From Thermoplasma sp. (lineage in GTDB: Archaea; Thermoplasmatota; Thermoplasmata; Thermoplasmatales; Thermoplasmataceae): DNA of 49,174 nucleotides. The stretch lies in contig NZ_VYIJ01000011.1 of assembly GCF_008709555.1 (NCBI RefSeq), positions 1 through 49,174 on the forward strand, given 5' to 3'. Below are positions 32,072 to 39,087 of this stretch, in pieces (position 1 is the first letter of the stretch; each line of letters opens with the position of its first letter). The notes below the pieces were generated by a model. It did no database searches and was not told the DNA's origin. It was given only the letters and a program-made list of their open reading frames with translations. The position numbers were made by a program, and so were the translations under genes.

Positions 32072-35000
32072 ATGTTTGAAACTGTGGAAAGAAATGAGAA
32101 CAAATTTGACCTTTCAACGATATTCAAGAGGTATGAGACAGAGATAATACTTGGAATAATCTTTGTCTTCTATCTCTTTATGGCAAACTTCTTTTCCTGG
32201 TCGCAGGCCTTTGCTTACCCATTTCTCAACAACTCGGGTGGCAGTGATCCGTATTTCAATTATTATATTATACAATACATATTGACGTATCACACCCAGC
32301 TCCTGCATGAGCTGTTCTTGAATTACCCGGTGGGTTCAGGAAACCCAAGGCCGCCATTCTTCCATTGGATGATCGCATTCGTAGCCACGATATTGTCTCC
32401 TATATTTGGTGTATATAAGGCGGCATATTATGCGTTTGCTGAATTCGATGCGGTATTTGGAGCCCTTCTAATAATACCTGTGTATCTCATGGCAAAGGAG
32501 GCTTTCGGCAAGAAGGCGGGCATAATAGCGGCTTTCCTTTATGCACTAATGCCGGGCAACCTCTCTGCAGGCATACTCACTGATGGAAGGATGCACACAC
32601 CTGAACTCCTCTTTGCATTTCTCACCATATACTTCTTTGAGATGGCGCTGAAGAACGCCAAGAAAGGAATATTCATAGATAGTCTCCTGAATGTGAGATC
32701 GTACCTTCCTTCAATAATTTCATACTACACAAAGAATAAGAAGGCTACAATCTACGCTCTCCTCTCTGGCGCATCCCTTGGCGCATTGATGCTCTCGTGG
32801 CAGGGATATGCGTATATACAGGTAATAGTGCTTATATATGTGGTTGTCCAGGCCGTCATTAACCTACTGACAAGAAAGCCAACTGGTTATCTCACATACG
32901 CAACCACATTATCTACGTTCCTTGGCCTTGCCATGGGTGCATACTACTATTACGGATCTGGCTTGCTTTCAGGATGGTTCACGCCAGAAGCTGAAATGGC
33001 TGTTCTTGGCATAGCTTTCCTGCTCTTGATAAATATCATCGGAAGGAAGCCATGGATAATAACTGTACCATTGACCATAGCGGTGTCTCTGGCAGGATTC
33101 TTTGTTCTGCTTAAATTAGAACCATCAACCATGAACACGCTCATCTCTGGAGAAGGCTACTTTATAAAGACAAGAGTTTATACGACCATCGCAGAGGCAG
33201 CGCCGCTTCCGCTCGGCGAATATATTAACAGCTTCGGCGTAGCACAATTCGTTTTGGGCATGAGCGGAATTGTATACGTGATATACAAGTATGTCAAGGA
33301 GAGAACCGATGTACTGATGTTCATCCTCGTTTTCTCCATAGTCTCAATATACATGAGTTTCGAGGCGGCTAGGTTCAACATCACAGCCGCACCTGCATAC
33401 GGTATACTCGGTGGAGCAGTTCTGATATATTTCATAGACATGGCAAAACTGACCGAAGTGAGGAAGAGGAATCTCGGCAGTGCCACGCTTAAGAAAACAC
33501 TAAAGGGAAACATCAACTGGGTCCATGCAAGCTTCGCAGTCATACTGGTGCTGGTGCTCGTCATACCCTCTGGCATAGGCATGGTGAACGCGGCAATTCC
33601 AGAGAACAGCGCTTCAACTGTTAATTCACAGATATACAATGAACTTCCTGCCTTCCTCAGGGCGAACAATTCCAGCAACGCGCAGTATTTCGGTTCGTCA
33701 GGTTTTTACATAGATAATGCATCTCAGCCCCTGGCCCAGTCATTCGCATGGCTGGCTACACAGAATACAAATGTGCCTATAGACCAGAGGCCTGCTTACG
33801 TTAACTGGTGGGACTACGGCTTCCAGGAAGTGGTTGAAGGCCAGCACCCAACCGTTGCAGACGACTTCCAGCAGGGATATGTCCCAGCTGGTCAGATCCT
33901 GCTCGCTGGAAACCAAAGCCAGATCCTCGGTGTAATGATAGCTAGGCTGATCAAGGGTTATGAGGTCAACCACCACACCTTTGCCCCTATAAACTCAACG
34001 CTAACGCAGTATTTAGGATACGCCGCTGCTAATACCGTATACAGGGCATACACCGATCCGGCTTCATTCACCTCTACGGTTCTTTCGAACACAACCATAT
34101 ACGGTAATTTCATAAATTCATCGACTCCAGATAACATCTACTACGGGTTCCTGAGGGGGTATCTGGCTAGTTCTTTCAGCCTGAACACCCTTAATAGTTT
34201 GTACACTGCACTTGAAGACGCAACTGGCTACTCAATCCAGTACATACAGATAGATCACAATCTGTTCCCATTTTCAGGCGATAATCCAGGAATATTCTAT
34301 GCTCCAGCCTACCTTACGGATCAGGCTACATATACTTATGATGGAGAGATAGTTCCATACACATATTATCAGATATATGCCTCGACCGATCAGGGAACGT
34401 ATCCACTCAATCAGCTTCCAACAGATGTTACTCCTGTTGGCTTCAACATCACCTATACGCCGGCCTTCTATAATACCTCTATATACCGGTTCCTAGTTGG
34501 ATATCCCCCATCCGCGGTTGGACAGACGAATGGAATTCCTGGAATATCATACGGGGTTGGTCAATACGAAATAATGCCAGCCTGGAACATGAGTAACTTC
34601 GAGCTTGTCTACCTTGGTGTTCCATACAATCCATATAACAATACAACTGCGCATCCAAACGCCTGGAAGATAGTCCCGATACAGGAAGCGTATACCCTTA
34701 CATCTGAAGGCAAAGGTAAGGCCCAACTCCTTCCGCCGCTATCAGAGATATATAATGGTGCGGACCCGATAGTGGCATATTACCCGGGTGCCTACATCAG
34801 CGGCAGGGTCACGACAGAATCAGGCAATGGTGTTGGGGGCGTATATGTCACCATATTTGACCAGTATGGAATACCGCATCAGGAGGTCGTCACCAATTCA
34901 TCAGGATACTTCAATCTGGTCGGTCTGCCCGGTAATGATACGGTAGTCATAAGTACGGGCACGATCGATCATCTAACCATGATAGGCTCAAATGTTATAT

Positions 35001-38000
35001 CTTACTGGAAGGTTGATGTTACTCAGGCTCAGGCTGAACACATCTCGACATCCTTCAACCTGACAACAGGTTTACCGGATTATTATTTGAGTCATAATTT
35101 CGTCATAAATAACACGACTGTAAGCGGAAATATAGGATACAGCTACAGGTCATCTTACAACTCCACTTCGACTGTTCAAGTTAGCAGTGGAACTGTGATA
35201 CTTCACAATTCAACATACAATTACACGGTAAGCACAAGATCTGCTAACGGTTTCTACGAGTTCAGAGGTATACCTCCTTATGATTACTCGATTTCTGTCA
35301 TATTAAACGGTCATTACTACGGAAATATACTCACTGCAAACACATCTGTTGGTGGATCATACGTCTACAATGCATATGTGCCCATGAATACTGTTAACCT
35401 GACGGTTTTATTGGGCAACGCACCCATGAGCCATTTCTCCATTTATGTCAATGGAACTAAAGACAGCAATGCCACATATAAGGATGGGCATTATTTGATA
35501 TATCTGCCATCAGGCAATTACACCATATCAGCAAGATCATCCAACGCAACGACAGGGGATATACGGGAGTCACTGCCTGGATGGAATTCCTATGTTAATG
35601 TTTCGTTGCCTGCATACATGGCGGTGCGGGTCTCAGGTCACACAACCAACCTGACCAAACTGGAGTTCCTATATGATGGAAACTATGACAACGTAACGGC
35701 CTCTCTGAACGTTACGAATGGAAGCTTCAGCGTTATCATACCTTCAGGTTCGTACACATTGTACGGAACAGGAAACGGACATGCATTCCTTGCAACGTAC
35801 ATGTTGACTTCAGATGCCAATATCAATATCACGGGAGTTCCAGCAGAGACTGTGAGTCTAGAATCGAACATAACAAATCTGTCTATAAGTTCAGGTTATT
35901 ATTCAATTGTCTCTGGAGAGTCTTTCCTGTATTATCAGTACAGTGGCAGTTCCCAGTTCAACCTGAGCCTGCCATCAGGTTACTATTCAATATACTCTGC
36001 CAGTGTTATTGCTGGGCAGAGCTATTCCTCAATCCTCAAGCTACCGCTCACAAAGAGCGTTTCATATCAGATGCATCTGGTAAATTCAACTTCGGCTGGT
36101 CTTGTGCTCTATAATGCAGGGATCAGCGCTTCATACAGCAGCAACTCATCGGTGAGAAATGGCTATATAATGTTATATTCCTATAATACACCCATAGAGG
36201 CTGTACCGATAATCACCTCGGGATATACTGATATTGTTTACTCACTGAACACTGGTAATCCTCAGATAAGGATAGTATCGCCTAACTTCTACAATTATAC
36301 CGTGACTAACGTATCGTCTGCGATGACCATAGGCCTCACCCCTATTAATGTACCTGTATCCATGACGATCTATAATGCATCCCAGCCGGCTGACTTCAAT
36401 GGATACGTTGACCTAATGGGCCCATACAGCTATAACCTCTCAATGATTAATGGTGTCATAGTAGGGTCCGTATTCCCCGGCATATACAGCCTAGAGTTCC
36501 ACAATTCAACAAACATCATAAAATATGGGAATTATCCCATACTGGCATCCAGATCCATATCCCTGCAAGTGGCTATATATGCAAACGTCTCAAGCAAAAT
36601 AAGCAATTTATATCTCTTCTCGGCCCCTGGCACCATGGTTAAATTTGGAATAATTCCGGTTGGAACATACGAGGAGTATTACTACAGTGGTTCAAATTAT
36701 TCACTTTCTAATGTTAATATAATGAGGAATACCGAGATAACCAACATATCGACGCAGGCTGGCTATTACCTCAATCTAAGTAACGACCTCGGCATATCTG
36801 GAGTCTACAGCGTATATGGAGATGGATTTAGGCTGTCCGGGCTCAGTAATCTCGTGCTTCCTATGGCTAAATACGAGGTATCATTCTCTGGGAGCTTCTC
36901 AAACTCTACGGGTTCTTTCTATGCCAACGGCACGGCCAACGTAACACTCAGTTCAAGCATGAATGAAACATTAAACCTTACAGTATCACAGGTCCTAACG
37001 AACTTGCATGTGAATACTGGAGTTCCATATTCAAGGGTATACCTGTACTATAACGGATCATTATATAAGTACTCCAATGCAAACGCTACGGGCGTTGCGT
37101 TATTCAATGTTCCCACCAGAGATTATACGGTTTATGCACTAAACAGATCAGATAGCAGTGGGTACTTCGGATATGTATCGATCGCTCCCTTCAAGAATTA
37201 TGAGGAATATAATGCAAGCATGGTAAGGGCCTATATGGTATACATGATGACTGCAGTGGATGGAGTTCAGAGATATCTGAACGTCACGATAACTTCGGGC
37301 AATGCATATCTCACCGTGAACAGCTCCATTTCATATGTTTATCTTCCGGTAGGCAACTATACATTCTCATCTCAGATAACTAGCACAGAGTCCTTCCCAA
37401 CTGAGACGGTCAGCATAACATTTGCAAGCTCTTCGACTGTCTATGTTAATGCGCTTTCATACGTCAATCTCAATCTTGAGAAGGAAAAGGTGTTCTCCTT
37501 CTCGGTGAGCCAGATCTCAAAGATAGAAACATTCGGCTACAGCCTGAATAATGGTACAGTAATATACCATCCATTGACCTATAATTTCACGGTGATGAAT
37601 ACAGGAAACTCGATGGTGAACATAACCCTTTCATCAGGCAATTCCAGCAGTTTCGCCATGGTGTTCGCTGCAAAGAATATGACCGGCGGAAAACTGGAGC
37701 TTATGCCGGGCCAGGAGGAAAACGTTACAGTAAATATAACTCCACTTAAGATGATGAATTCAGGCCAGATCAAGATACCCGTCAATATAAGCTATACTGG
37801 CGGTAATACCACAAAATACCTGTACGCAGAATTTCCATCAGTTACTTCCTTCACCGTATCGTCTGGAAGCAGTGCCGTGAACGGCACGGATCTAGAGCTG
37901 CCTATAATAATAAACAATACAGGAAATACCAACATCACAGTCAATCTAACTATACCATCCTCTGAGATAGCTAACATCTCTGAACTCGATTACTCTGTGC

Positions 38001-38317
38001 ACTACCCTGCCAGCATCTCAGTTCCTGCATATTCCTCAAGGGTAGTCAACATAACGCTCGTACCTACTTCACCCACACCGGCCCCGCAGGTGTCGGTGAT
38101 CGTTAACGTGAGCGGATACGGTTCATTACATAAGGTCACGATCACAGGCACGTATCCCCAGCTATCCAAGGCGAGTGTAACGGCCAGTGGAAATGGTGTA
38201 ATAAATAATTACACCGCAGATCCATATCTTAGCCTGATCATAGGTCTGATACTCATAGCGGTTACTGTCGTTGCTGGACTTAGCATATCCGCATACAGGG
38301 GGAGGCGTAAGAGATGA
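32072..38317 (+). CDS. aglB: giant AglB/STT3 oligosaccharyltransferase with a long repeat extension
   Basis: The catalytic subunit that moves a lipid-linked glycan to Asn in N-x-S/T. About 2081 residues. Residues 1-520 are multi-pass membrane, with GGSDPYFNYY near 55 and TDGRMHTPE near 170 (acidic metal motifs) and TTIAEAAP near 370 (TIXE-type motif). WWDYG at 579-583 starts the soluble sequon-binding domain. From about 907 (AYISGRVTTESG) comes an extension of some 1,140 residues: tandem beta-sandwich repeats ending in PSG-Y-type strands, then two CARDB/NEW3-like segments near 1835 and 1943, a membrane segment at 2051-2073 and a basic tail. The extension is dense in N-x-S/T. Usual archaeal AglBs have roughly 600-1000 residues. 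Its stop overlaps the next start. Confidence 0.92.
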   Translation: MFETVERNENKFDLSTIFKRYETEIILGIIFVFYLFMANFFSWSQAFAYPFLNNSGGSDPYFNYYIIQYILTYHTQLLHELFLNYPVGSGNPRPPFFHWMIAFVATILSPIFGVYKAAYYAFAEFDAVFGALLIIPVYLMAKEAFGKKAGIIAAFLYALMPGNLSAGILTDGRMHTPELLFAFLTIYFFEMALKNAKKGIFIDSLLNVRSYLPSIISYYTKNKKATIYALLSGASLGALMLSWQGYAYIQVIVLIYVVVQAVINLLTRKPTGYLTYATTLSTFLGLAMGAYYYYGSGLLSGWFTPEAEMAVLGIAFLLLINIIGRKPWIITVPLTIAVSLAGFFVLLKLEPSTMNTLISGEGYFIKTRVYTTIAEAAPLPLGEYINSFGVAQFVLGMSGIVYVIYKYVKERTDVLMFILVFSIVSIYMSFEAARFNITAAPAYGILGGAVLIYFIDMAKLTEVRKRNLGSATLKKTLKGNINWVHASFAVILVLVLVIPSGIGMVNAAIPENSASTVNSQIYNELPAFLRANNSSNAQYFGSSGFYIDNASQPLAQSFAWLATQNTNVPIDQRPAYVNWWDYGFQEVVEGQHPTVADDFQQGYVPAGQILLAGNQSQILGVMIARLIKGYEVNHHTFAPINSTLTQYLGYAAANTVYRAYTDPASFTSTVLSNTTIYGNFINSSTPDNIYYGFLRGYLASSFSLNTLNSLYTALEDATGYSIQYIQIDHNLFPFSGDNPGIFYAPAYLTDQATYTYDGEIVPYTYYQIYASTDQGTYPLNQLPTDVTPVGFNITYTPAFYNTSIYRFLVGYPPSAVGQTNGIPGISYGVGQYEIMPAWNMSNFELVYLGVPYNPYNNTTAHPNAWKIVPIQEAYTLTSEGKGKAQLLPPLSEIYNGADPIVAYYPGAYISGRVTTESGNGVGGVYVTIFDQYGIPHQEVVTNSSGYFNLVGLPGNDTVVISTGTIDHLTMIGSNVISYWKVDVTQAQAEHISTSFNLTTGLPDYYLSHNFVINNTTVSGNIGYSYRSSYNSTSTVQVSSGTVILHNSTYNYTVSTRSANGFYEFRGIPPYDYSISVILNGHYYGNILTANTSVGGSYVYNAYVPMNTVNLTVLLGNAPMSHFSIYVNGTKDSNATYKDGHYLIYLPSGNYTISARSSNATTGDIRESLPGWNSYVNVSLPAYMAVRVSGHTTNLTKLEFLYDGNYDNVTASLNVTNGSFSVIIPSGSYTLYGTGNGHAFLATYMLTSDANINITGVPAETVSLESNITNLSISSGYYSIVSGESFLYYQYSGSSQFNLSLPSGYYSIYSASVIAGQSYSSILKLPLTKSVSYQMHLVNSTSAGLVLYNAGISASYSSNSSVRNGYIMLYSYNTPIEAVPIITSGYTDIVYSLNTGNPQIRIVSPNFYNYTVTNVSSAMTIGLTPINVPVSMTIYNASQPADFNGYVDLMGPYSYNLSMINGVIVGSVFPGIYSLEFHNSTNIIKYGNYPILASRSISLQVAIYANVSSKISNLYLFSAPGTMVKFGIIPVGTYEEYYYSGSNYSLSNVNIMRNTEITNISTQAGYYLNLSNDLGISGVYSVYGDGFRLSGLSNLVLPMAKYEVSFSGSFSNSTGSFYANGTANVTLSSSMNETLNLTVSQVLTNLHVNTGVPYSRVYLYYNGSLYKYSNANATGVALFNVPTRDYTVYALNRSDSSGYFGYVSIAPFKNYEEYNASMVRAYMVYMMTAVDGVQRYLNVTITSGNAYLTVNSSISYVYLPVGNYTFSSQITSTESFPTETVSITFASSSTVYVNALSYVNLNLEKEKVFSFSVSQISKIETFGYSLNNGTVIYHPLTYNFTVMNTGNSMVNITLSSGNSSSFAMVFAAKNMTGGKLELMPGQEENVTVNITPLKMMNSGQIKIPVNISYTGGNTTKYLYAEFPSVTSFTVSSGSSAVNGTDLELPIIINNTGNTNITVNLTIPSSEIANISELDYSVHYPASISVPAYSSRVVNITLVPTSPTPAPQVSVIVNVSGYGSLHKVTITGTYPQLSKASVTASGNGVINNYTADPYLSLIIGLILIAVTVVAGLSISAYRGRRKR

Positions 38318-39087
38318 ACAGATACTTCATTATACCGGTCATGATCGCTACGTTCGTGTTGCTGCTGGCCGGTTCAGTGGCCAGTGCACAAACAGCTCCG
38401 TTTTACTCATCGCAGGTAAGCTATCCTTCGGATGTTGGCACAGGCCAGCAGTTCAACATAACGATAATTAGCACGGCCGGATTCAGCAATTACAATTTTA
38501 CCATATATATCGCAGGTACCAATCTTACCGGGATCAGCCCGACGAATACCATACATCAATACTATGCAAGCAAATACAACTATACTGCCACGATCACCGC
38601 TCCAGAAACTCCACAGACACTTTATCTGTACATAGTCACATCTGCCGATTTTGACGGCGTCCAGTACAACTATTCTGAGATGATAATGATCTCCGTGATA
38701 TCACCGATATACTTTCATGTATTCCTAAGTAATCCAACATCATATCTTGTGTATAACGTTACCGCTACATTCTACATCGATGGAGTGCCAGTAATGCAGA
38801 AGACCGTTCAGAAAATAATGCCAGGTTCAACTGTTGAGGTCAACGCCACCTATGTCAATCCAAACCTGGGACACGGATCGCATACATTGACTGTAACTCT
38901 GAACAACGCAAACATAAAGATAGATGGAAACTCTAACTCCATAAGCACGAGGTTCTACTATGGTACCCCTCCAGACTATAATTGGATATACTACGTATTC
39001 GCGTTTGTGCTTGTGTTCATGGTGGTTATGGTTCTAGGATCAGGCAGGGGAAGAAACCAGCCGAAATGGAAGAAATCAAAGAAATGA
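38314..39087 (+). CDS. secreted, membrane-anchored glycoprotein coupled to aglB
   Basis: A 257-residue protein with a signal peptide (MNRYFIIPVMIATFVLLLAG...SAQ), an external beta-rich domain rich in N-x-S/T sites (NITI, NFT, NLT, NYT, NVT, NAT), one C-terminal membrane segment (YYVFAFVLVFMVVMVLGS) and a basic cytoplasmic end. The ATG overlaps the aglB stop (ATGA, 38314-38317), so both are made from one mRNA. The family is not recognised. A partner of AglB or an abundant glycosylation substrate is plausible. Stop-anchor and signal-peptide calls are by eye. Confidence 0.8.
   Translation: MNRYFIIPVMIATFVLLLAGSVASAQTAPFYSSQVSYPSDVGTGQQFNITIISTAGFSNYNFTIYIAGTNLTGISPTNTIHQYYASKYNYTATITAPETPQTLYLYIVTSADFDGVQYNYSEMIMISVISPIYFHVFLSNPTSYLVYNVTATFYIDGVPVMQKTVQKIMPGSTVEVNATYVNPNLGHGSHTLTVTLNNANIKIDGNSNSISTRFYYGTPPDYNWIYYVFAFVLVFMVVMVLGSGRGRNQPKWKKSKK

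Follow-up and report, generated by a model that had tools for sequence, protein, structure and literature searches.

Archaeal oligosaccharyltransferases (OSTs) are described as proteins of about 900 residues. The archaeal enzyme has been described as single-subunit (PMC7226087); in A. fulgidus AglB, the metal is bound by Asp47, Asp161 and His163, and we take the roles of the STT3/AglB motifs from the same source (PMC8342417). N-glycans have been reported on surface proteins of T. acidophilum and modelled on pilin and archaellin sequons of its relatives, and an unordered exterior protein layer of ~20 nm, its identity reported as unknown, is present in two Thermoplasmatales (PMC12448462).

Here, we analysed a 49,174-nucleotide stretch of a Thermoplasma sp. 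genome (hereafter, the window; all features described lie on its forward strand). A single intact frame at positions 32072–38317 encodes an AglB/STT3 protein of 2,081 amino acids (aa), and we found no description of an AglB of such size in the open-access literature. At the level of sequence, the analysis establishes the fusion of enzyme and arm, the domain architecture and its distribution, the operon with a partner gene, selection on sequons and the persistence of the architecture after loss of catalytic motifs. The protein is clearly STT3/AglB by homology; for the architecture, the partner and a branch with an eroded core, no earlier description was found in the open-access literature.

Frame, catalytic core and metal site

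The same frame is free of stops in same-genus genomes at 61–84% identity, two of which are single-contig, and this recurrence excludes the assembly artefact that a preliminary description of the locus had named as a possible source of the fusion. Nor is the extension encoded separately in relatives, save perhaps in one genome (G006) in which the frame is broken into adjacent pieces of 1233 and 916 aa (locus L145), through either a sequencing error or a real split.

Residues 1–505 (32072–33586) form the multi-pass transmembrane GT-C/STT3 part, as delimited by TIGR04154, phmmer and hydrophobic helices. They are followed after the last core helix by the C-terminal globular catalytic region (aa 506–900; 33587–34771), which holds the WWDYG motif and 12 sequons. 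The TIGR04154 profile matches aa 27–625 at 181.9 bits, below a curated cut-off of 450 bits that is passed in 5 of 194 phylum genomes, the top-scoring genes being AglBs of ~930–1,000 aa. A. fulgidus AglB matches by phmmer over aa 18–602 (E = 1e-13), and in a profile search of the organism's own genome the STT3 family PF02516 scored 39.2 bits (cut-off 24.5), with the giant AglB as the only STT3.

Alignment recovered the STT3/AglB hallmarks, namely the first DXD Asp (Asp59, 32246–32248, equivalent to Asp47 of A. fulgidus AglB), the TIXE Glu (Glu375, equivalent to Glu360, in a TIAE motif at 33185–33196) and the sequon-binding WWDYG (aa 579–583, 33806–33820). The second DXD motif departs from the expected pattern: Arg173 (32588–32590) replaces Asp161 and His175 retains His163, an arrangement shared by 40 of 40 members of the window's protein family. 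Elsewhere in the class, several families carry Leu, Gly, Val or Asn at this place, and we found no description of the Asp161-to-Arg substitution in the open-access literature. On this alignment the window protein is homologous to STT3 but differs at its metal site; the core that had been called complete matches both TIGR04154 and A. fulgidus AglB, with one metal ligand substituted. Because N-glycans are reported in T. acidophilum and modelled in close relatives, the site has probably stayed active, its coordination being altered. A substituted metal ligand in the OST of N-glycosylating organisms makes the metal model directly testable.

The sequon-rich arm and the downstream gene

Beyond the catalytic unit, ~1,180 further residues form an outward-facing arm. 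It begins with a beta-domain block (aa 901–1140; 34772–35491) that is common to shorter AglBs of the phylum and includes a CarboxypepD_reg-like domain at aa 909–961 (PF13620, 33.3 bits versus a cut-off of 32.3), and continues as a sequon-dense tandem beta-sandwich array (aa 1141–2050; 35492–38221). AlphaFold2 modelled the arm as an all-beta chain with a terminal helix (mean pLDDT 64; core model, 49), and the PSG-Y-type domain-end motif occurs in 7 copies versus 0.09 expected, at spacings near multiples of ~77. The profile of the first block also matches repeatedly within relatives' arms, which makes the repeats homologous rather than just alike in composition. Foldseek of the arm returned generic tandem beta-sandwich matches (HYDIN and alpha-2-macroglobulin; TM ~0.1). 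A membrane helix of ~20 aa (aa ~2055–2073; 38234–38290), recognized from hydropathy and the AlphaFold2 model, ends the protein and is followed by the basic tail YRGRRKR. The preliminary description had anticipated the beta-sandwich extension, its recurring PSG-Y ends and the second membrane anchor, all of which are borne out, but its two CARDB/NEW3-like segments are not: Pfam gave only sub-threshold Ig-like matches at aa 1834–1996 and no significant CARDB within the 2,081-aa protein, and the significant CARDB belongs to the downstream gene.

The density of sequons noticed earlier also proved real. Between aa 901 and 2050 there are 63 N-x-S/T sequons versus 25.3 ± 4.2 in shuffles, a 2.5-fold excess over composition; the narrower claim of more than twenty in the first ~350 residues depends on where counting starts (19 in aa 901–1250, 22 in aa 940–1289). 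The transmembrane core has only three, and other window proteins tested carry 0.2–1.1 per 100 residues, apart from the product of the downstream gene at 2.7. Arm sequons favour N-x-T over N-x-S (41:22, P = 4e-5) despite Ser being more frequent than Thr, and their Asn residues are better conserved against the G004 genome (45 of 63) than those outside sequons (19 of 49; P = 0.001). Excess, Thr preference and conservation together are a signature of selection for N-glycosylation and support the view that the arm is under selection for carrying N-glycans. Two proteins with an intact core (L109 and L115) have an arm ratio of ~1.07, without excess. The same genome also encodes a surface ORF (L179:131-2164) with 34 sequons in 678 aa, with a CARDB-type domain plus helix at its end.

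The downstream gene (38314–39087), whose start overlaps the AglB stop (ATGA), encodes a partner of 257 aa with an N-terminal hydrophobic signal, a CARDB domain (PF07705, 25.5 bits versus a cut-off of 22.7) and a C-terminal helix. Neither this gene nor the eroded-core relatives figured in the preliminary description. The partner adjoins the giant in all loci read from the window's family, in 23 of 23 loci from elsewhere in the class (one of which has it as an ORF shortened to 179 aa) and in 11 of 11 eroded-core loci with room for the gene; a partner-family profile match was present in 244 of 250 class genomes, and in the loci read no partner was seen beside shorter AglBs. Partners of intact lineages are themselves sequon-rich (264 observed versus 102 expected). 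Giants in families f38, f41, f43, f55 and f56 have C-termini that match the CARDB-plus-helix half of the partner. We rejected this as Rosetta-stone proof, as this half matches many other surface ORFs just as well and is thus a generic anchor module. In families f47 and f55 (L126–L129), AglBs of 3,169–3,205 aa lack a partner gene, and an enlarged region precedes their WWDYG, which lies at position ~950.

Distribution of the giant form and the eroded-core methanogens

Comparing AglB lengths, as had been proposed, revealed that the giant is the rule among relatives of the window protein. It is present in 59 of 61 relatives' genomes, 51 with near-full-length single frames (2,033–2,134 aa), proteins of similar size occur across almost the whole order, and the core was found in 238 of 250 class genomes. 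Forms of 2,000–3,300 aa extend to many families of the phylum, methanogens included; other families have forms of 1,160–1,430 aa without the terminal helix, and a few have an ordinary AglB of ~930 aa. The preliminary description had linked the fusion to wall-less acidophiles, which finds no support because the architecture is spread over the phylum and includes methanogens.

All complete giants longer than 2,000 aa carry the terminal helix, 4–16 residues before the C-terminus. In a quick maximum-likelihood tree they cluster, apart from one 1,603-aa protein with an overlapping next ORF that looks like a broken giant, so the giant forms are apparently one clade. Profile matches place the first beta block also in AglBs of 1,030–1,400 aa, which suggests stepwise growth from core to beta block to long arm with anchor. 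In genus g18 (L146, L147 and L148), the arm is ~600 aa shorter (1,433–1,454 aa in total), and helix and partner are kept; full length is therefore not essential. We had considered these proteins as a natural split, but rejected this since the retained C-terminal helix marks them as shortened.

One family, f11, stands apart. Its genomes carry methyl-coenzyme M reductase, which makes it methanogenic, and we infer it to be Methanomassiliicoccales. Eleven of its 12 proteins (L160–L170 loci) have lost the first DXD Asp, TIXE and WWDYG in part or entirely, and the twelfth (G173) is intact. No second STT3 was found in the eroded-core f11 genomes, which have one STT3-like gene each. The proteins still reach 1,831–2,555 aa and retain the terminal helix and the partner. 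The sequon excess has gone from the eroded-core partners (24 observed versus 22.9 expected) and is small in the pooled arms (165 versus 128.6). Arm ratios are 0.9–1.7 in eroded-core proteins, against which intact lineages have a median near 2.3 (Mann–Whitney P = 5e-5; P = 0.003 when the comparison is with class members from outside the order). These P values overstate independence because the sequences are related by descent.

That arm, anchor and partner outlast the eroded motifs while the sequon excess fades points to glycosylation plus another role: an intact enzyme would glycosylate the arm and partner that belong to it, and both would also have a structural role independent of catalysis. 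Instead of being kept as a bare scaffold, the eroded core may have taken on a new purpose. A broader view, which we hold with some doubt, is that in much of the phylum the OST is a two-gene surface machine that f11 would keep as a catalytically dead, structural pseudo-OST after losing N-glycosylation. The family offers a natural experiment separating the structural role of the arm from glycosylation.

Possible roles and comparison with known systems

Our preferred though tentative interpretation, which we place a little short of an even chance, is a glycosylated surface scaffold around enzyme and partner with a dual-anchored arm. The outward side of AglB would have grown into a long, stiff beta-sandwich chain fixed to the membrane twice: the multi-pass core holds one end, a single helix the other. 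Together with the co-encoded CARDB membrane protein, the arm would surround the enzyme as a surface assembly, presumably a physical complex. AglBs with an intact core would N-glycosylate arm and partner, in cis or in trans and with sites presumably occupied by glycans, besides further clients such as archaellins and pilins. The basic role of the arm would be architectural, as a glycosylated spacer or scaffold that keeps the enzyme and its partner within the exterior layer. The earlier idea of an enzyme fused to its own glycosylated surface protein stands for the single fused protein and, as far as sequence can tell, for selection on its sequons.

Arm and partner could instead be accessory parts of the OST that, in the manner of non-catalytic subunits of the eukaryotic OST, capture, hold or position client proteins or the lipid-linked glycan for the catalytic core. 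The covalent fusion to the catalytic subunit, the single conserved partner and the placing of the first beta block, common to shorter AglBs, directly upon the catalytic domain all speak for such a device. It would, however, leave the persistence of arm, anchor and partner in 11 of 12 methanogen proteins with eroded motifs hard to explain, and the arm diverges far more quickly than the core (77% versus 94% identity; in the dN/dS analysis, synonymous sites of the arm were saturated) and varies in length. We consider this account unlikely, if still a serious contender, and favour the surface scaffold over it. It is rather improbable that the arm makes up a main structural part of the unordered exterior layer (~20 nm) replacing the S-layer in Thermoplasmatales. 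Such a layer has been reported, its composition given as unknown (PMC12448462), the arm lies on the outside, has an anchor at each end and is rich in sequons, and ~14 domains in a folded-back chain could bridge that thickness; yet the architecture also occurs in lineages without a known layer of this kind, other sequon-rich anchored proteins exist (L179) and codon usage shows no hint of very strong expression. The codon adaptation values, 0.593 for the gene and 0.574 for its arm, fall under the window median (25 genes) and a long way short of those of elongation factors and the thermosome (0.75–0.79), so that the giant AglB is probably not a dominant coat protein. The arm may nevertheless plausibly belong to the layer.

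Slightly less probable still is a fast-evolving glycan shield that guards enzyme and membrane against acid, phage or protease and leaves the partner without a particular role. It would account for sequon density and rapid divergence but sits poorly with arms in methanogens, with eroded-core lineages that retain the arm largely without sequon excess and with a conserved partner gene. That the protein is an ordinary AglB with a long neutral appendage is hardly credible: beta-sandwich arrays are common among archaeal surface proteins and the Foldseek matches are only generic (TM ~0.1), but retention is near-universal across the class, anchor and partner are constant and the sequons are non-random.

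An OST built as a doubly anchored surface protein of 2,000–3,300 residues, accompanied by a co-conserved partner and shared by a large part of the phylum, provides a concrete candidate for how a glycoprotein surface is organized in S-layer-free cells, whose surface composition is reported as unknown. Among known systems, A. fulgidus AglB (PDB 3waj/5gmy/7e9s) shares the multi-pass STT3 core, the first DXD Asp, TIXE and WWDYG, but the solved construct has 875 aa, without arm or C-terminal helix, and its Asp161 metal ligand is Arg in the window protein. The archaeosortase-system-associated OST family TIGR04154 is the best family match (aa 27–625), although 181.9 bits is well under its 450-bit cut-off. 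Eukaryotic OST accessory subunits (ribophorins and OST48) are likewise membrane-anchored, lumenal partners of STT3, a functional analogy only, as no sequence relation was found. Archaeal surface proteins with CARDB/Ig-like arrays share the beta-sandwich chain, the sequons and the terminal helix with a basic tail, and the CARDB-helix module of the partner ends other surface ORFs too; unlike these proteins, the window arm is fused to a glycosyltransferase.
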